Assembly: GCA_003247225.1 (NCBI GenBank) | Contig: QKAK01000022.1 | Location: 1-47,218, forward strand | Reading direction: 5' to 3' | DNA length: 47,218 nucleotides | Source: Spirochaetota bacterium | GTDB lineage: Bacteria; Spirochaetota; Spirochaetia; Treponematales; UBA12059 | Part shown: piece after piece, positions 24,359 to 39,326 of the stretch | How positions within the stretch are numbered: position 1 is the stretch's first letter | Layout: the number at the start of each line of letters is the position of its first letter | The notes under the pieces: generated by a model | Told to the model about the DNA's origin: nothing | The model's database searches: none | What the model saw: the letters and a program-made list of their open reading frames with translations, nothing else | Position numbers and translations under genes: made by a program

Positions 24359-25729
24359 CTAATCGGCGTAGCCGTATTCGTTAAGCTTATTGAACAGCGT
24401 CCGCCTCGTGATGCCCAGCTCGAGCGCGCTGGCCTCCCGCTTGCCTCCGTTTCGGCGCAGCGCCTCGAGGATGGCCCGTTTCTCGAGCTCGGCTATAGTC
24501 AGGGCCTCCCCTTCGTCGGAGACGAAGGGCGAGCGGCCGGGCTCGGTCCGCTCCGGCTCCTCGGCCCGCCGGCCGTGCGAGCCCGGGCCGAGCTGGAAGT
24601 CGTCGGCCTGGAGCTCGTCGCCCTCGGACAGGATAAGGGCGCGCTCGACGGCGTTGGACAGCTCGCGGACGTTCCCGGGGAACGGATAGCCGGCGATCAG
24701 GCGGAGCGCGCTCGGGGCGAGCCTGGCGTTCCTGCGACCGAGCGACGGCGCGAGCGTCTCGACGAAGTAGCCCGCCAGCGCGATCGCGTCGTCGGGGCGT
24801 TCGCGCAGCGGCGGTAGGCGTATCCTGACCACGTTGATCCTATAGTACAGGTCCTCCCTGAACGAGCCGGAGGCGACCATGGCCTCGAGGTCGCGGTTTG
24901 TCGCCGCGAGTATCCTGGCGTCCACGGGTACGCCCTTCGTGCCGCCCAGCCTGGTCACCTTGCGCTCCTGCAGCGCCCTGAGGATCTTGACCTGCATGTG
25001 GGCCGGCATCTCGCCTATCTCGTCGAGGAACAGCGTGCCGCCGTCGGCCAGCTCGAATAGCCCGGTCTTGCGCTCCGCGGCCCCGGTGAACGCCCCCTTC
25101 TCGTAGCCGAACAGCTCGCTCTCGAGCAGGTTCTCCGGTATCGCGCCCAGGTTGACCGCGACGAAGGCGCCCTGGCGGCCGGAGCGCTCGTGGATCAGCC
25201 TGGCGGCCACCTCCTTGCCGGTGCCGCTCTCGCCGGTGATCAGCACGGTGGCCGGCGTCGGCGCGGCCCGATCTATCAGCCTGAGCGCTTCCTTGATAGC
25301 CGGCGAGTCGCCTACCATCCTGGTCCTGTCGACCGAAGGCCGCCTCGAGGCCTCCCGATCCGCGCTCAGGCGGCGGTCCCGGACGGCCTTGCGGAGGCGT
25401 ATGACCAGCTCGTCCGGATCGAAGGGCTTGACCAGGTAATCGAAGGCGCCGAGCCTCATAGCCTCGACCGCGTCGCGCACGTCGCCGTGGGCGCTCATCA
25501 TGACGACCGGCAGGGTCATGCCCTCGTCCTTGATCCAGCGCAGTAGCGAGATGCCGTCCACGCCGGGCATGCGTATGTCGAGGACGGCCGCGTCGAACGG
25601 CTCGTCTGATAGCCTGGCCCTGGCCGCGGAGCCGTCGGGTACGAGCTCTGATTCTATGGATTCGGCCTTCAGGAAGGCCCCGATCGAGCTCAACAGGTTC
25701 GGTTCGTCATCGGCTACGAGTACGCGCAT
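24359..25729 (-). CDS. Sigma-54-dependent response regulator (NtrC/AtoC type)
   Basis: A 456-residue two-component regulator. The receiver domain has acidic residues D7/D8, phospho-acceptor D51 and the K101 region. The AAA+ activator has Walker A GESGTGKE (166-173), the sigma-54-contacting GAFTGA (212-217) and later DEIGEMP and RILAATNR. The C-terminal Fis-type helix-turn-helix covers about 415-456 ([31 protein letters not shown]). GGGAG precedes the ATG. No histidine kinase or rpoN lies in the window, so it is an orphan here; its signal and targets are unknown. Confidence 0.94.
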
Positions 25730-25789: not shown

Positions 25790-26680
25790 ATGCTCGACTC
25801 AAGAGTGAAACGATCGGCTCGCGAGGCGATGGTCGCCGGGATTTTCTATCCGGACGACCCGTCGCGGCTCGAGTCCAGGATCGTCCGGGCGATCGCCGCA
25901 GCCCGCGAGGCTTCGAGCCGTGACGCCTCGCCTCCCGCGGCGGCGGGGAAGATCCTGGCCATACTCGCGCCGCACGCGGCCTTCGACTATTCTATCGGGC
26001 TCCAGGCGACGAGCTGGCTAGCCGCGGCCACGAGCCTCGTCGCCCGCGCGCCCGAGCGCGTCATCGTGCTCGGCCCTACCAGGCGTCGCGATGAGCCGGG
26101 GGTATACCTGCCCGAGGTGGAGGCGTTCCAGACCCCGCTAGGCGATATCGAGGTCGACGTCGAGGTCTGCGAGGAGCTGGAATCGTGCTGCACCCTGTTC
26201 TCGCGTAACGATATACCGCATTTCGAGAGCCATTCGATCGAGCTGCAGCTGCCGTTCATGCGGCTCCTCTTCCCGGGAGCCAGGCTCGTTCCCATCCTGG
26301 CCTGCGGCGACGCCACGGTCGCCTCGGGCTTGGCCAGGGCGATGGACGCGGTGCTCGGCGCCGACCTCGGGCGGACCCTCGTCGTCGCGTCGAGCAACAT
26401 GGCCGCGTCCATAGTCGCGGCGGACTCCGCCGGGCGCACCGACGAGCTATTGCGCTGTATAGCGCGGGACGCCTGGCGGGACGTGGCGTCCCGCGACGAT
26501 ATAGGCGGCTCGGCGGCGATAGCCGCCGCGATGGCCGTAGCGCCGATGCTCGATCGGCGATTCTCCCTACTCGGCCGGGGCGATTCGCTCGGTCACGAGA
26601 AGTCGTCCGCCGAGCGCGTGGTGCAGTACGCGTCGGCGGGCTGGTACCGTATCGGCGCGGCGCCGGGGGAGGCCCTATGA
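25790..26680 (+). CDS. amrB: Memo-family protein (AmmeMemoRadiSam system protein B), divergent
   Basis: A 296-residue MEMO1-like protein. Family landmarks are REAMVAGIFYPDDP (11-24), LAPHAAFDYS (59-68, with H62), VIVLGPTRRR (91-100), QTPLGDIEVD (114-123), ESHSIELQLPF (146-156) and the VVASSNMAAS region (198-207). Compared with the usual GPSH, SSDxSH and CG motifs, this protein reads GPTR, SSNxAA and IG. Four of five metal-site residues known from human MEMO1 thus appear replaced (R98, N203, A206, I238), while H62 remains. It overlaps the AMMECR1 gene by 4 bases. Function of the system is unknown. Confidence 0.86.
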   Translation: MLDSRVKRSAREAMVAGIFYPDDPSRLESRIVRAIAAAREASSRDASPPAAAGKILAILAPHAAFDYSIGLQATSWLAAATSLVARAPERVIVLGPTRRRDEPGVYLPEVEAFQTPLGDIEVDVEVCEELESCCTLFSRNDIPHFESHSIELQLPFMRLLFPGARLVPILACGDATVASGLARAMDAVLGADLGRTLVVASSNMAASIVAADSAGRTDELLRCIARDAWRDVASRDDIGGSAAIAAAMAVAPMLDRRFSLLGRGDSLGHEKSSAERVVQYASAGWYRIGAAPGEAL

Positions 26681-27243
26681 GCCTCGAGCTATCGAACGAC
26701 GACAAGGGCGCGCTGCTCGCCACGGCGCGGGAGGCCATCGAGTCCAGGCTGCTCGGCCGCCGGCCCGCCTGGCCGGAAGGCGGCCAGGCCCTCCAGGCTC
26801 GGCTCGGCGCCTTCGTCACGCTGCATAAGCGATCATCGTACGGGCGGCGGCTGCTGCGCGGCTGCATAGGCAGGATGAGCGCCGACAAGGCCCTCGTCCT
26901 GACCGTACGCGACATGGCCTTGGCCGCCGCGTTCGAGGATCCTCGCTTCCCGCCGCTGATCGACCGGGAGCTCGAGGCGGTAGACGTCGAGATATCGGTG
27001 CTGTCGCCGTTCGAGCCGTGCTCGCCCGATGACGTCGTGCCCGGCGTCCACGGCGTGCTCCTGAGGCGCGGCTACTCCTCCGGCGTATTCCTGCCCCAGG
27101 TCGCCGCCGAGCAGGGCTGGGGGCGCGAGGAGCTGCTCGAGGAGCTATGCGTCAAGGCAGGCGTCGCTGCCGGCTCGTACCTGGCGCCGGACGCGAGCCT
27201 CTACCGCTTCACCGCGACGGTGTTCGGCGAGCTTGGATCCTGA
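26677..27243 (+). CDS. amrA: AMMECR1-domain protein (AmmeMemoRadiSam system protein A)
   Basis: A 188-residue AMMECR1-family protein. The hallmark LRGCIG is at residues 60-65, with upstream GAFVTLHKR and downstream LAAAFEDPRFPPL, VEISVLSPFEP, GVHGVLLRRG and the FLPQVAAEQGW block. The ATG overlaps the Memo stop codon, so the two are made together. The third member of the triad, the radical-SAM enzyme, is at 38310-39326. The last 43 bases overlap the convergent amidohydrolase gene. Biochemical role unknown. Confidence 0.92.
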   Translation: MSLELSNDDKGALLATAREAIESRLLGRRPAWPEGGQALQARLGAFVTLHKRSSYGRRLLRGCIGRMSADKALVLTVRDMALAAAFEDPRFPPLIDRELEAVDVEISVLSPFEPCSPDDVVPGVHGVLLRRGYSSGVFLPQVAAEQGWGREELLEELCVKAGVAAGSYLAPDASLYRFTATVFGELGS

Positions 27244-31868: not shown

Positions 31869-34304
31869 CTAGGCCGGCCGCTTCTCCGCGGCGGCGGGCT
31901 TCCTCGCCCGGCCGGGCGCCCGGGGCGTCGCGGTCGGCAATAGCACCGCGAACGCCTCCGCTATCGTCGAGCAGAAGCGGTATTCCATAGCCTGCGAGAC
32001 CTCGGACGGGATGTCGTCGAGGTCCTTGCGGTTGGCCTCGGGCAGGAGCACCTTGTACACCTTGTTCCGATGGGCCGAGAGTATCTTCTCCTTGACGCCG
32101 CCTATGGCCAGGATGCGGCCCGTCAGGGTGATCTCGCCGGTCATGGCCCAGCCCGCCGACAGCGGCGAGCCGGTCAGCGCCGAGGCTATCGCCGCGGCGA
32201 GCGTGATGCCGGCAGAGGGGCCGTCCTTCGGGATGGCCCCTTCCGGCACGTGCACGTGGATGACGCGGCCGGCGAAGTCCTTGGCCGCGAGGCCGTACTC
32301 CTCGGCGTGGGCCCGCAGGTAGGTCAGCGCGGCCCTGGCGCTCTCCTTCATCACGTCGCCTAGGTTGCCCGTCAGGATCAGCTCGCCCTCGCCCTCGAAG
32401 CTCGACGCCTCGACGGGCAGTACCGAGCCGCCCATCTCTGTCCAGGCCAGCCCGCAGGCCAGGCCGGGACCCGGCTCGGAGAAGACCAGGTCGTTCTCGT
32501 GGCGTCGCTTCCCGAGCAGCTTGGGGAGCGACGAGGCGCCGATCACGCGCTTGAACTCGGCCAGCGGCTTTAGCCCGCCGGCGTAGCCGGCCTCGACGGC
32601 CCGCTCGGCCGTCTTCCTGACGACCCTGGCTATCTCCCGCTCGAGGGACCGTACGCCCGACTCCATCGTGTAGTGCCTGACGATCTCGAGCACGGCGTCG
32701 TCGCGTATCCTCGTCGCCGAGCCGGCGAGGCCGTTCTCCCTGATCTGCTTCGGGACGATGAAGTGCTTGGCTATCTCGAGCTTCTCGTACTCGCTGTAGC
32801 CGGGTATCTCTATCAGCTCCATGCGGTCGAGCAGGGCGTAGGGTATCGAGTGGACGCTGTTGGCGGTGGTGACGAACATGACGCCGGACAGGTCGTACGG
32901 CACCTCGAGGTAGTGGTCGACGAAGCTGGCGTTCTGCTCCGGGTCGAGCACCTCGAGCAGCGCGCTCGCCGGGTCGCCGCGGAAGTCGCTCGACATCTTG
33001 TCTATCTCGTCGAGCAGGAACACGGGGTTCGACGAGCCGGCCTTGCGCATGCTCTGCAGTATCTTGCCCGGCAGGGCGCCTACGTAGGTCTTGCGGTGGC
33101 CGCGTATCTCGGCCTCGTCGCGTACGCCGCCGAGGCTCATGCGTACGAAGTCCCGGCCCAGCGCCCTGGCGATCGACCGGCCGAGGCTGGTCTTGCCGGT
33201 GCCCGGAGGCCCGACGAGGCAGAGGATAGGCCCCTTGAGCGAGTCGTTGAGCTGCCTGACGGCTATGAACTCGAGGATGCGCTCCTTGGCCTTCCTCATG
33301 CCGTAATGGTCCTCGTCGAGCGCGGCCTTGGCGGCCGCCAGGTCCTTGGAGTCGGGCGTGCGAGCGGACCAGGGCAGGTCGGCCAGCCACTCGCAGTAGC
33401 CGCGAATAACGCCGGCCTCGGGCGACAGGGGCTGCAGCTTCGCGAGCCGCGTCAGTTCCTTCTTGGCCTTGTCGAGGACCTCCTGAGGAGGCGCCTTCGA
33501 CTCTATGCGGCGGGTAAGCTCGGCCAGGTCGGACTCGTCGTCGTCTCGGCCCAGCTCCTTGTTGATCTCCTTGAGCTGTTCCTGGAGGAAGTAGTCCTTC
33601 TGGCTCTTCTCCATCCTGACGCGGACCTTCTGGGAGATGCGCTTCTGGATCGACAAGAGCTCTATATCCTGGGACAGCGCCCTGGCGGTAGCCTCGAGGC
33701 GCTCCTTCAGCGGGACGACGGACAGCAGTTCCTGCTTGCGCTCGAGCTTGAGGCCCATCGCGTTGGCTATCGTATCGCACAGCTTGTGCGGGGGCTCGGC
33801 GCGCTGCACCGCCAGCATGGTCTCGTTCGGTATCTTCTTGACGAGGTCGGCGTAGGTCGAGAAGTCGCGCCGTAGGATCTGCACGAGGGCGGCGAGCTCC
33901 TTCTGGCCGTCCGCGTCGCCGTCCTGGGCCTCGTCGTCGATCGCCTCGACGATGGCGCCGAGGTATTCCTTGCGGAACGCGGTGCGCTTGATGCGGCCGC
34001 GTCGCTGCCCCTCGACGAGCAGCCTGATAGAGCCGTCCGCCAGCCTGATCGACTGGATCACGTGCGCGACCGTGCCTATCTCGTGCACGTCGATGTCGTT
34101 GGCGCCCTCGGCCGGGAGGCTCTTGAGGAGTGAAATGAAGATGACCTTGTCGGCCTTGGCGGCCGCCTCGGAGGCGGCGATGCAGAATTTCGTGGCGGCG
34201 AGCACCGGCGCGATCGTGTGGGGGAACACGACCGCGTCGCGGACGTATACGAGCGGGATTTCCAATGCGCCCCCCTTGGGGCGCAGGGATTCCAGCATGC
34301 TCAT
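31869..34304 (-). CDS. lon: ATP-dependent protease Lon
   Basis: An 811-residue cytoplasmic AAA+ serine protease. The N-terminal LAN domain starts with [17 protein letters not shown]. The AAA+ module has Walker A GPPGTGKT (about 365) and [10 protein letters not shown]. The C-terminal protease domain has the catalytic Ser in [10 protein letters not shown] (about 695) and Lys in GGVKEKIL (about 737). The start codon overlaps the clpX stop codon by 4 bases. Grouping with tig, clpP and clpX makes one protein-quality-control operon. Confidence 0.97.
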
Positions 34305-35560
34305 GCGCTCTTCTTCAGTCCTTCGATGACCGGGGGCGACTTGGACACGACGGTGTCGCGGGTCACGATGACGCGCCGGTCGTCCGAGCCGCTCGGGAGG
34401 TCGTACATGACGTCGATCAGCAGGTTCTCGACGATCGACCTGAGCCCGCGGGCGCCGGTCTTGCGCGCTATGGCCTGCTCGGCTATCGCGTCTATCGCCT
34501 CCGGGGCGAACACGAGCTCGGCGCCGTCGAGCTTGAAGCTCTCCTGGTACTGCTTGAGTATCGAGTTCTTCGGCTCGGTGATGATGCGCTTGAGGTCGTC
34601 GGCCTCGAGGTTGTCGAGGGCCACCTGGATCGGCAGCCGGCCGATGAACTCAGGTATCATGCCGAACTTGACGAGGTCGTCCGGGTGCATGTCCATGAAC
34701 AGCTCGCGGAGGCCTATCTTGGTCTTCTCCTGCAGCTCCGCGCCGAAGCCGAGCGCGGCCTTTGCTACGCGGGCCTCGATGGTCTTGTCCAGGCCGACGA
34801 AGGCGCCGCCGCAGATGAACAGGATGTTCGTCGTATCGATGCGGATGTATTCCTGCTGCGGGTGCTTGCGTCCGCCCTGCGGCGGCACGTTGGCGACGGT
34901 GCCCTCGATGATCTTGAGCAGGGCCTGCTGCACGCCCTCGCCCGAGACGTCCCGGGTGATCGACACGTTCTGCGTCTTGCGGGCTATCTTGTCGATCTCG
35001 TCGATGTAGATGATGCCCTTCTCGGCGAGCGATACGTTGCCGCCGGCGTTCTGGATCAGCTTGAGGAGGATGTTCTCCACGTCCTCGCCGACGTAGCCGG
35101 CCTCGGTCAGCGTCGTGGCGTCGGCGATGGCGAACGGCACGTTCAGCTTCTTGGCCAGCGTGCGGGCGAGCAGCGTCTTACCGGTCCCGGTCGGGCCGAG
35201 CAGGAGCACGTTCGACTTCTCGAGCTCGACGCCGTCGGCCAGGTTGTGCTGGTGGGCTATCCGCTTATAGTGGTTGTAGACCGCCACGGACAGCACCTTC
35301 TTCGCGTAGTCCTGCCCGATGACGAACTGGTCGAGGTAGTCCTTGATGTCCTTGGGCTTGGGCACGTCGGTCGAGAAGTCGCCGGAGGCGGCGCTCTCGT
35401 CCTCGGCGAGGATGCGGTTGCAGACCTGTACGCACTCGTCGCAGATGTAGACGCCGGGGCCGGCTATCAGGCGCTTGGCGAACTCGGCCGACTTGCCGCA
35501 GAACGAGCACTCGTGGAGCTCCTCGCCGTCGGTCCCCTTACTTCCCTTCGACCGCGCCAT
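34301..35560 (-). CDS. clpX: ATP-dependent Clp protease, ATP-binding subunit ClpX
   Basis: A 419-residue unfoldase that feeds substrates to ClpP. The N-terminal zinc-binding domain has C18/C21 and C40/C43. The AAA+ core has Walker A GPTGTGKT (122-129), [11 protein letters not shown] and the GYVGEDVE pore loop. A LGF tripeptide in AALGFGAEL is the likely ClpP-docking loop. It overlaps clpP by 23 bases upstream and lon by 4 bases downstream. Confidence 0.97.
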
Positions 35561-36158
35561 GCTTCCTCCGCTCCAGGATCGAGTCGACCAGGCCGTACTC
35601 GACCGCCTCCTGCGCCGACATGAAGAAGTCGCGCTCCATATCCTGGGCCACGCGATCGACCGGCTTGCCGGTATGCTTGGCGAAGTACTCCACCGTCATC
35701 TTCTTCATGCGGATGATCTCGCGGGCCTGGATGCTGATGTCGGAGGCCTGCCCCTGGACGCCGCCCCAGGGCTGGTGTATCAGGATCCTCGAGCTGGGCA
35801 GGGCCAGGCGCTTGCCGGCCGCGCCGCCGGCGAGCAGCAGGGCGCCCATGCTCGACGCCTGGCCGACGCAGATGGTCTTCACGTCGGGCTGGACGATCTG
35901 CATCGTGTCGTAGATGGCCAGCCCGGCCGTCACCGCGCCGCCGGGGGAGTTGATATATAGGTCGATATCCTTCTCGGCGTCCTGCGAGGCGAGGAACAGC
36001 AGCTGGGCGACCACGAGGTCGGCCGTCAGGTCGTTGATCTCGCCGTCGACGAAGACGATGCGGTCCTTCAGGAGCCGCGAATAAATATCGTACGAGCGCT
36101 CGCCTATCCCGGTCTGCTCTATGACCACCGGTACGAGGTTGTGCATCTTCTCGATCAT
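35538..36158 (-). CDS. clpP: ATP-dependent Clp protease, proteolytic subunit ClpP
   Basis: A 206-residue serine peptidase forming the barrel used by ClpX. The catalytic triad is Ser103 (ASSMGA), His128 (LIHQPWGG) and Asp177 (ERDFFMSA), with spacing as in E. coli ClpP. I choose the ATG at 36158 because GAGGTG lies 7 bases upstream. A TTG start seven codons earlier is less likely. It follows tig by 23 bases. Confidence 0.96.
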
Positions 36159-36181
36159 CTCATTGCACCTCGCGGACAAGA

Positions 36182-37540
36182 TTACTCATTTTCCTTGAAT
36201 AAGTCCACGAACGCGATCTTCTTGCCCTTCTTGGCCTTCATCTTCTTCTCGAGGTCGGCGATCAGGCGGTCTTCCTTGATCCTGTCGACGAGGTATTCGA
36301 CCATGCCGCGGCGCTCGTACTCGGCCTTGACCTCCTCGACCGACAGGTTGGAGTCGGCGGCCATCTTGGCGTACTCGGCCGCGACGTCCTCGTCGGAGGC
36401 CGAGTACTTGCCCTCCTCGGTCAGCTTGTCGAGCACGAGCCTCGTCTTGATCGCCTTCTCGGCCTCCGGCCTCCACTCCTCGCGCAGCTGGTCGACGCTG
36501 CGGCCGCTCATGCTGACGATCTGGGCCAGGCGCTCCTCGCTATCGATGCCCATGCGCTGCATCAGGTTGCGCAGCCGCATCTCGAGCTCGGCGGCGACCA
36601 TCGAGGCCGGGAGGTCGACGGTCGACTTCTCGACGAGCGCGTCGACGACGCCCTTCTCGCGGAGGCTCTTGAGCCTGTCCTCGAGGCGCTTCTCGAGCTT
36701 GGCCCGGATATCGGCCTTGAGGTCGTCGAGGGTCTTGAACTTCTCCGATACGTCCTGGGCCAGATCGTCGTCGAGCTCGGGGAGCTTCTTCTCCTTGAGC
36801 TTGGTCAGCTTGACGCGCAGCTTCTTGGTCTGGCCGGCCAGCTCGGAGTACTCGAAGTCGGCCGGGAAGGCCTTCTCGATCGTCTTCTCGGCGTCCTTCT
36901 TCATGCCGATCACGTCGTCGTCGAATTTATACAGGTTGTGGCCGGAGCCCAGCTCGAAGACGAAGTCCTGGCGCTCGGTGCCCTTGACCGGCTCGCCGGA
37001 CTCGTCGAGCTCGGCGTAGTCGACCGTGGCGATATCGCCCTTCTTGGCGGCGGCCTTGTCGTCCTTGTCCATGACGATGGCGTTGCGGTCGCGGATCTCG
37101 TCGAGCTCGCGCTCCTCGTCGGCCTTGGCGATGGTCACCTGGGGCAGCTCGAGCTCCATGCCCTCTATGTCGCCGGGTACGACCTCGGGGAATACGTCGT
37201 AGGTGACGGAGAACGAGAAGTCGGCGTCGAGCTCGAAGGCGGGCTGGCCGTCGAGAGACGGCTGGGCGTACGACAGCGGGACGAGGGCCTCTCCGTCGAG
37301 CGCCTTCTCGACCGCCTCGTCCATCACGCGGCCCATCGCGTCGAGCTTGAGCTGAGGTCCGAACTTGCGCTCGAGTATATTCGCGGGCACCTTGCCCTTG
37401 CGGAAGCCGTCTATCCTGACGTTCTTCGCGTAATCCTTGAGCAGGGCGTCGTAGGCGGCCCGGACGTCGTCCTTGCCTACGGTGACGGTGAGCCTGACCG
37501 CGGAATGCTCCAGCTTCTCGATATTCTTCGTTACGACCAC
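36182..37540 (-). CDS. tig: Trigger factor
   Basis: A ribosome-associated chaperone with peptidyl-prolyl isomerase activity, 452 residues from the GTG at 37540, preceded by AAGGGG. The N-terminal ribosome-binding region contains the signature [17 protein letters not shown]. The FKBP-like domain follows ([11 protein letters not shown] to [10 protein letters not shown]), then a long helical, Lys/Glu-rich C-terminal chaperone domain. A longer upstream reading is rejected as it lacks family similarity. First gene of tig-clpP-clpX-lon. Confidence 0.95.
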
Positions 37541-37581
37541 GTGTATTCCCCTTCTCCTGCGGGACCGCGGAAGGGCCCGCC

Positions 37582-37587
37582 AGTATA
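37582..37587 (-). promoter_or_regulatory. Possible -10 element for tig
   Basis: TATACT on the minus strand, about 40 bases before the tig GTG, in the gap between tig and the tRNA terminator. No good -35 at 16-18 bases. Listed because the terminator upstream implies tig needs its own promoter. Confidence 0.3.
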
Positions 37588-37634
37588 CGTAGCATTGGAA
37601 GCGAGCCGTCTGCCGCGGCGGCGTCGCTAACGAC

Positions 37635-37673
37635 AAAAAAATAAGGCGATCCGGGAGTTCTCCGGACCGCCTT
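37635..37673 (-). terminator. Intrinsic terminator of the tRNA cluster
   Basis: On the minus strand AAGGCG (37673-37668) pairs with CGCCTT (37648-37643), extended inside by GTCCGG/CCGGAT around a short loop, and is followed by a run of seven T (37641-37635). It ends the tRNA transcript ahead of tig. Confidence 0.9.
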
Positions 37674-38309: not shown

Positions 38310-39326
38310 CTAAAAAATATTTCGCTCGCCGCGGATCGGGCTGATCTCGCCGCAGGAGGCGCAGCGGCCGTCCTTGAGCCCGGAGGCGTCGACGGCGTAG
38401 CCGATCCTCGAGACGAGTACGGCGCCGCAGGCCCGGCAGAGCGTGACGGAGCGCTCGCCGGGTACGTTGCCGGTATAGACGTAGCGAAGGCTCCGACGGG
38501 CGACGTCCGCGAGGGAGCGCAGCGACGACGCCTTGGTCGCCGGGATCGTATAGCGGTACATGGGACGGTACGCCGACAGGTGGTACGGAATGTCGGGCGA
38601 CAACGAGGCCAGGAAGCTCGCGATAGCGGCTATCCCGGCGGGGTCGTCGTTCTTGCCCGGGATGACCAGCGTGGTGACCTCGACGTGCACGCCGCGCTCG
38701 ACGGCGGCCGTCACGAAGCGCTTGACCGACTCCAGGTCGCCGCCCAGCTCGTCGCGGTAGAAGCCCTCGTCCCACGACTTCAGGTCTACGTTGACGGCGT
38801 CGCACTGCGACAGTACGTCGGCGGCGGCCTCGTCGCCGCAGCAGCCGTTGGTGACGAGCGCGTTGGCCAGGCCGGCGGCCCGGGCCGCCCTCATGCACGC
38901 CGCGACGAACTCGGCGTGGACGAGGGGCTCCGAGTACGTATGCGCCAGCGACGGGCAGCCGGCCGCCCGCGCCTCCGCGGCGAGGCCGGCCGGGTCGACG
39001 CGACGCGTCGCGGCGTCGACGCGCTGGGATATCCCGTGGTTCTGGCAGAACGGGCAGCGGAGGTTGCAGCCAAGGTAGCCGACCGAGTAGGTCTCGCTGC
39101 CCGGCATGAAGTGGTACAGGGGCTTCTTCTCGATAGGGTCGGCCGAGACGGCGCTGGCCATGCCGTAGAACGGCAGCGCCATGGCGCCGCCCGCGTTGCG
39201 CCTGACCCTGCAGGCGCCGGAGCCGCCGTCGCGTATGACGCAGCGGCGGTGGCAGAGCCGGCAGCGCAGGTCGCCGCCCGGAAGGCGCTCGTAATATCGG
39301 GCCGGCGATCCGGCGCGGGCATCCAC
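38310..39326 (-). CDS. amrS: AmmeMemoRadiSam system radical SAM enzyme
   Basis: A 338-residue radical-SAM protein resembling pyruvate-formate-lyase-activating enzymes. The 4Fe-4S motif is C87-x3-C91-x2-C94 (CNLRCPFCQNH). Extra cysteines flank the barrel: N-terminal C22, C25, C29, C39 (CRLCHRRC...C), and two C-terminal C-x-x-C pairs (CRACG, CASCG) that look like a zinc ribbon. This layout is that of the AmmeMemoRadiSam radical-SAM subfamily. It ends an operon with lnt and an unknown gene. Its usual partners AMMECR1 and Memo lie elsewhere in the window. Reaction unknown. Confidence 0.92.
   Translation of the reverse strand: MDARAGSPARYYERLPGGDLRCRLCHRRCVIRDGGSGACRVRRNAGGAMALPFYGMASAVSADPIEKKPLYHFMPGSETYSVGYLGCNLRCPFCQNHGISQRVDAATRRVDPAGLAAEARAAGCPSLAHTYSEPLVHAEFVAACMRAARAAGLANALVTNGCCGDEAAADVLSQCDAVNVDLKSWDEGFYRDELGGDLESVKRFVTAAVERGVHVEVTTLVIPGKNDDPAGIAAIASFLASLSPDIPYHLSAYRPMYRYTIPATKASSLRSLADVARRSLRYVYTGNVPGERSVTLCRACGAVLVSRIGYAVDASGLKDGRCASCGEISPIRGERNIF

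Follow-up and report, generated by a model that had tools for sequence, protein, structure and literature searches.

The locus and its genes

The window analyzed here is the whole of a 47,218-nucleotide stretch of DNA, contig QKAK01000022.1 of the draft genome (GCA_003247225.1; 224 contigs) of a Spirochaetota bacterium (Treponematales, UBA12059). It carries a gene for a Memo family protein, here called MemoA, that is coupled to an AMMECR1 gene, and a radical SAM enzyme gene on the opposite strand. The features of interest, with residues matched to those of human MEMO1, are as follows.

25790..26680, + strand: MemoA gene, putative pseudoenzyme; ATG start, 296 amino acids, stop at 26678-26680; assigned by family profiles and structural model
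25973..25975, + strand: His62 codon, equivalent of MEMO1 ligand H49, kept (HMM alignment)
26081..26083, + strand: Arg98 codon, at the position of MEMO1 ligand H81 (HMM alignment)
26219..26233, + strand: His144 to His148 (HFESH), landmark still present; His148 aligns with MEMO1 H131
26396..26398, + strand: Asn203 codon, at the position of MEMO1 D189 (HMM alignment, columns of intact relatives)
26405..26407, + strand: Ala206 codon, at the position of MEMO1 H192 (HMM alignment, columns of intact relatives)
26504..26506, + strand: Gly239 codon, at the position of MEMO1 ligand C244 (alignment, profile match, columns of intact relatives)
26677..27243, + strand: AMMECR1 gene (AmmeMemoRadiSam protein A); start overlaps the MemoA stop; LRGCIG intact
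38310..39326, - strand: AmmeMemoRadiSam radical SAM enzyme gene, third triad member; TIGR04337, 275 bits (cut-off, 220)

The open reading frame, the family profiles, and a MEMO1-like predicted fold agree that this is a Memo gene, as an earlier sequence-only reading had proposed. MemoA scored 100.8 bits against Pfam PF01875 (Memo; cut-off, 27; E = 1e-28) and 143 bits against NCBIfam TIGR04336 (cut-off, 26). Its AlphaFold2 model (pLDDT, 93.9) matched human MEMO1 over 264 residues at 2.7 Å with a Z score of 31.2, and fold landmarks are still there (HSIE..LP and HFESH). Extradiol dioxygenases matched the models of MemoA and of MemoB, the second Memo of this genome (see below), with Z scores of about 13 to 18.

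The coupling to AMMECR1 takes the form of an ATGA overlap at 26677, again as first described. The window's AMMECR1 scored 156 bits against TIGR04335, over the curated cut-off, and a two-species comparison from its true start (188 codons) gave a dN of 0.059 and a dS of 0.485. The radical SAM enzyme, the member needed to complete the triad in which the Memo gene had been placed, has an intact CX3CX2C cluster motif (GCNLRCPFCQN); the AMMECR1, Memo, and radical SAM genes that make up AmmeMemoRadiSam are all on one contig. In the literature we found no established joint function for the three gene products. Both partners are retained in most genomes examined, and across several genera a similar interval, of about 11 to 13 kb, separates the radical SAM gene from the Memo/AMMECR1 pair (in G014, G017, G018, G019, G027, G064, and G067). 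We rejected the idea that MemoA decayed because its radical SAM partner was absent, since the window itself encodes that partner, as do most relatives. An in-frame TGA in some radical SAM matches was considered as selenocysteine and set aside, these matches reaching profile positions of about 330 to 340, apparently beyond the terminal stop. Between these two partner genes, at 31869-37636, are genes recognizable by sequence as lon, clpX, clpP, and trigger factor; on the other side, about 60 bp upstream of MemoA, a sigma-54 response regulator gene (24359-25729) is divergently oriented.

The metal site of MemoA

In human MEMO1, the iron ligands are H49, H81, and C244; the H49A and C244S substitutions abolish iron binding, D189N and H192A leave iron affinity without significant change, and H131 lies near the metal but does not coordinate it (PMC11081632). 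Because these mutants separate the two groups, the five residues originally listed as ligands (H49, H81, D189, H192, and C244) are better described as three ligands, for which the list holds, and two pocket residues, D189 and H192, for which it does not (PMC11081632).

The residue register was set by an HMM alignment with human MEMO1 included, by a profile match to MEMO1 in the PDB, and by the columns of intact relatives. A profile built from 59 relatives aligned with the whole of MEMO1 from the PDB (E = 2e-48) in the same register as the HMM alignment. This alignment confirmed that H62 is kept and that Arg98, Asn203, and Ala206 stand at the positions of H81, D189, and H192, but the earlier assignment of Ile238 to the position of C244 was one residue off. 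The Cys column is 239: 18 intact relatives have Ala-Cys-Gly at positions 238 to 240, and the window's MemoA has Ile-Gly-Gly, making Gly239 the correct residue. Two of the three iron ligands are gone, along with the equivalents of both pocket residues, and H62 is the only ligand left. We infer from these replacements that MemoA cannot bind iron in the manner of MEMO1. Likewise, the iron triad (two His plus Glu/Asp) and catalytic His by which class III extradiol dioxygenases are recognized do not occur in MemoA, given Arg98, Gly239, and Ala206, and dioxygenase structures matched its model with Z scores of only 13 to 17. MemoA is a Memo family member through descent and fold and, judged by its sequence, is not a metal-binding Memo.

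MemoA and MemoB among the spirochetes

To place the window's protein, we used 158 Memo sequences, mostly from the family, order, and phylum of the window's genome. Their tree has two clades, A (94 sequences, including MEMO1) and B (64 sequences), each with an SH-aLRT support of 100. Clade A is the AMMECR1-linked type and comprises 38 intact proteins, MEMO1 among them, and 56 degenerate ones, 53 of which come from the window's order plus family f5 and 3 from families f8/f20. The intact spirochete MemoA proteins all lie outside the window's class, with the single exception of L183. The equivalent of H192 is gone in 53 of 53 MemoA proteins sampled from the window's order plus G089/G117, many of which have Asn at the D189 position, and metal ligands have been lost in the window's genus, G004, G010, G020/G021, and G089/G117. 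A separate group (G084, G097, and G106) has a ligand loss of its own. By parsimony, at least two changes are needed for any loss and at least five for loss of metal ligands. The positions of Tyr65, His206, and Asp217 are invariant in 18 intact proteins and changed in all 39 aligned degenerate copies. The sequence-only reading had asked whether the loss is clade-wide, and it is.

Within the window's genus, H81 is replaced by Arg or Lys in 6/7 species and C244 by Gly, Ala, or Ile in 7/7; a sister-species MAG (L003), whose MemoA is 83% identical, has the same R/G/N/A combination as the window. Comparison of these two genes gave a dN of 0.10 and a dS of 0.54 by NG86 (ratio, 0.19) and a dN of 0.08 and a dS of 1.01 by YN00 (ratio, 0.08). 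In most matched species pairs the rate of change is somewhat higher for MemoA than for MemoB, with constraint still present; in families f1 and f3 MemoA is found stop-free in nearly all genomes, and lineage-specific residues are conserved among MemoA proteins. Because the ligand loss is genus-wide and dN/dS is low, the changes reflect neither sequencing error nor a pseudogene, and the latter was rejected on the ratios of 0.08 to 0.19.

The search for a second, intact Memo that the sequence-only reading had proposed found one in the same genome. This protein, MemoB (L002, on contig 220), has all five residues, in the motifs IAPHAG, GGH, STDLTH, and SACS, and its AlphaFold2 model (pLDDT, 96.2) matched MEMO1 with a Z score of 30.3. 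MemoB shares family and fold with MemoA but differs in its five intact residues, in being unlinked to AMMECR1, and in having DN rather than EH where His148 stands. All 64 members of the MemoB clade have the H,H,C,D,H set. AMMECR1 was present in the fetched neighborhood of 44 of 56 degenerate MemoA genes versus 0 of 64 MemoB genes. Four genomes (G088, G093, G100, and G103) have MemoB without MemoA, and the other two triad genes, for AMMECR1 and the radical SAM enzyme, persist in all four, as would fit full membership of MemoB in the system.

MemoA and MemoB occur together in 51 genomes. MemoB is present in 50 of the 53 genomes with a degenerate MemoA (the MemoB of G117 being counted) and absent from 34 of the 35 with an intact one. 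A strict rule by which MemoA is degenerate if and only if MemoB is present was rejected on four exceptions: both proteins are intact in G086; G064 and G025 have lost H192 and kept the metal ligands, and MemoB was not found in them; and the fourth is G106. Applied to the raw counts, a Fisher test (P of about 1e-19) ignores relatedness and was set aside as evidence, and a tree-aware test had too few independent pairs. The association of degenerate MemoA with the presence of MemoB is suggestive, because the first residues were lost independently only twice. In G106, a degenerate MemoA (L191, G106:C141; residues E,H,H,N,E) is the only component found, the searches for MemoB, AMMECR1, and the radical SAM enzyme having turned up none of them; this protein may have a role outside the triad or be in final decay.

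Other Memo-like proteins were also encountered. Some genomes of the window's family encode a third, very divergent Memo/LigB-like protein (L050 to L055), with Tyr, Phe, Ile, or a gap at the Cys position; where covered, the two His remain, as do the equivalents of D189 and H192. Two family f2 genomes (G023 and G026) encode a 474- to 475-residue fusion of a divergent LigB/Memo-like domain to AMMECR1 (L201 and L202), an arrangement unlike that of MemoA and MemoB. Natural Memo-AMMECR1 fusions occur in L008 (Omnitrophota; metal site intact), G113:C3, and G163:C50, the last two with the radical SAM gene directly after the fusion.

Possible roles of a Memo without its metal site

MemoA has lost metal ligands, is under purifying selection, keeps its predicted fold and its linkage to AMMECR1, and has an intact paralogue in the same genome. 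On balance, we think it probable that MemoA is a pseudoenzyme whose retained role is structural or regulatory, as a partner of AMMECR1, and that MemoB supplies the metal chemistry; the two proteins seem to share out the job, because MemoA has lost its ligands while an intact copy exists elsewhere. The original suggestion of a metal-free scaffold, or of a changed function within the triad, is supported by the agreement of residue register, clade-wide loss, purifying selection, predicted fold, and AMMECR1 coupling, and it becomes sharper because of MemoB, of which that reading had no knowledge.

The degeneration was stepwise. H192 was lost first, at the base of the clade, along with the Tyr65 and Asp217 residues of the intact proteins; next, D189 became Asn in many lineages; and after that metal ligands were lost separately in several lineages, in the window's genus mostly by change of H81 to Arg or Lys and of C244 to Ala, Gly, or Ile. 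An Arg or Lys at the metal position (Arg98 in the window) might, speculatively, preserve positive charge in the pocket. MemoB would perform the metal-dependent chemistry of AmmeMemoRadiSam, and MemoA would be a noncatalytic binder of AMMECR1, perhaps also of MemoB or the radical SAM enzyme, that positions, stabilizes, or regulates its partners. A bolder and distinctly tentative version is an order-wide four-part machine in which the metal-free Memo is a dedicated adaptor docking AMMECR1, with the radical SAM enzyme perhaps as well, onto the separately encoded, metal-bearing Memo. If this were true, docking and metal chemistry, which one protein combines elsewhere, would be divided between two.

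It is possible, though we hold it to be speculative and doubt it more than we credit it, that the two Memo proteins assemble into a heteromer, with MemoA as the subunit that lacks metal and on which MemoB depends for folding or activity, as AmnB does on AmnA. The two Amn proteins, which were among the next structural matches, belong to the same fold superfamily (Z of about 17 against the MemoA model). They make up 2-aminophenol 1,6-dioxygenase as alpha/beta heterodimers; iron is marked in the beta subunit alone, and neither AmnA nor AmnB is soluble by itself (PMC10470539). The coexistence of both Memo proteins in so many genomes accords with such a partnership, but in none of the fetched loci do their genes lie side by side, and MemoB does not need MemoA in the four genomes where it occurs alone.

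A pocket rebuilt around another set of metal-binding residues, for example His62, His144, and His148, seems improbable. These might hold a metal, as each is conserved in 90% or more of the aligned MemoA proteins, the degenerate ones among them, and His148 corresponds to MEMO1 H131, which is near the metal (PMC11081632). However, H131 is noncoordinating in MEMO1 (PMC11081632), and the three His residues are old features, because intact MemoA proteins retain them equally; they also vary within the metal-lost set (Arg at 62 in L016, Asn at 148 in L004, and no His148 in L022).

We give still less credence to the view that MemoA is decaying toward loss after a takeover by MemoB. The faster evolution of MemoA, the stepwise deepening of its degeneration, its separation from AMMECR1 in family f4, and the solitary copy in G106 would all accord with decay, but the stop-free genes of f1 and f3, the low dN/dS, the high-confidence predicted fold, and the conserved lineage-specific residues argue against it. 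Finally, a sequencing error, frameshift, or misassembly in the motifs, conceivable in a draft of so many contigs, is refuted by the continuous open reading frame and by changes at the same positions in the separately assembled L003 and five further congeners (R/K at H81 and/or A/I at C244).

Memo is conserved from archaea to humans. To our knowledge, its basic function is unsolved, and whether it is a metal protein or a binding protein is disputed. In these spirochetes nature has parted the two roles: MemoA has been selected with AMMECR1 minus the metal site, and MemoB has the metal site minus the linkage. The split allows the AMMECR1-binding surface and the metal-dependent function to be tested without engineered mutants, and it shows that, among the proteins carrying the Memo annotation, some cannot be MEMO1-type metal proteins.

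In sum, MemoA is a well-supported pseudoenzyme: it belongs to a known family and to a known system whose function is unsolved, and its genome also encodes an intact twin. It resembles MEMO1 in fold, tree clade, the HSIE..LP landmark, and the residues matching H49 and H131 and differs in lacking the equivalents of H81, C244, D189, and H192. All three AmmeMemoRadiSam members (TIGR04335, TIGR04336, and TIGR04337) are in the window over curated cut-offs, but the linked Memo has a disabled metal site, and a fourth gene, for an intact Memo, lies elsewhere in the genome; the apparent split of the job between two copies is seen throughout a bacterial order. The closest functioning counterpart is AmnA/AmnB, in which an iron-free subunit is paired with a relative from the same superfamily that does bear iron (PMC10470539). 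The Amn complex is proven and encoded in one gene cluster, whereas the MemoA and MemoB genes lie apart and a complex of their products is hypothetical, and the structural match to the Amn proteins has an identity of only 13 to 16%; the Amn pair is a superfamily precedent for retaining an iron-less subunit.
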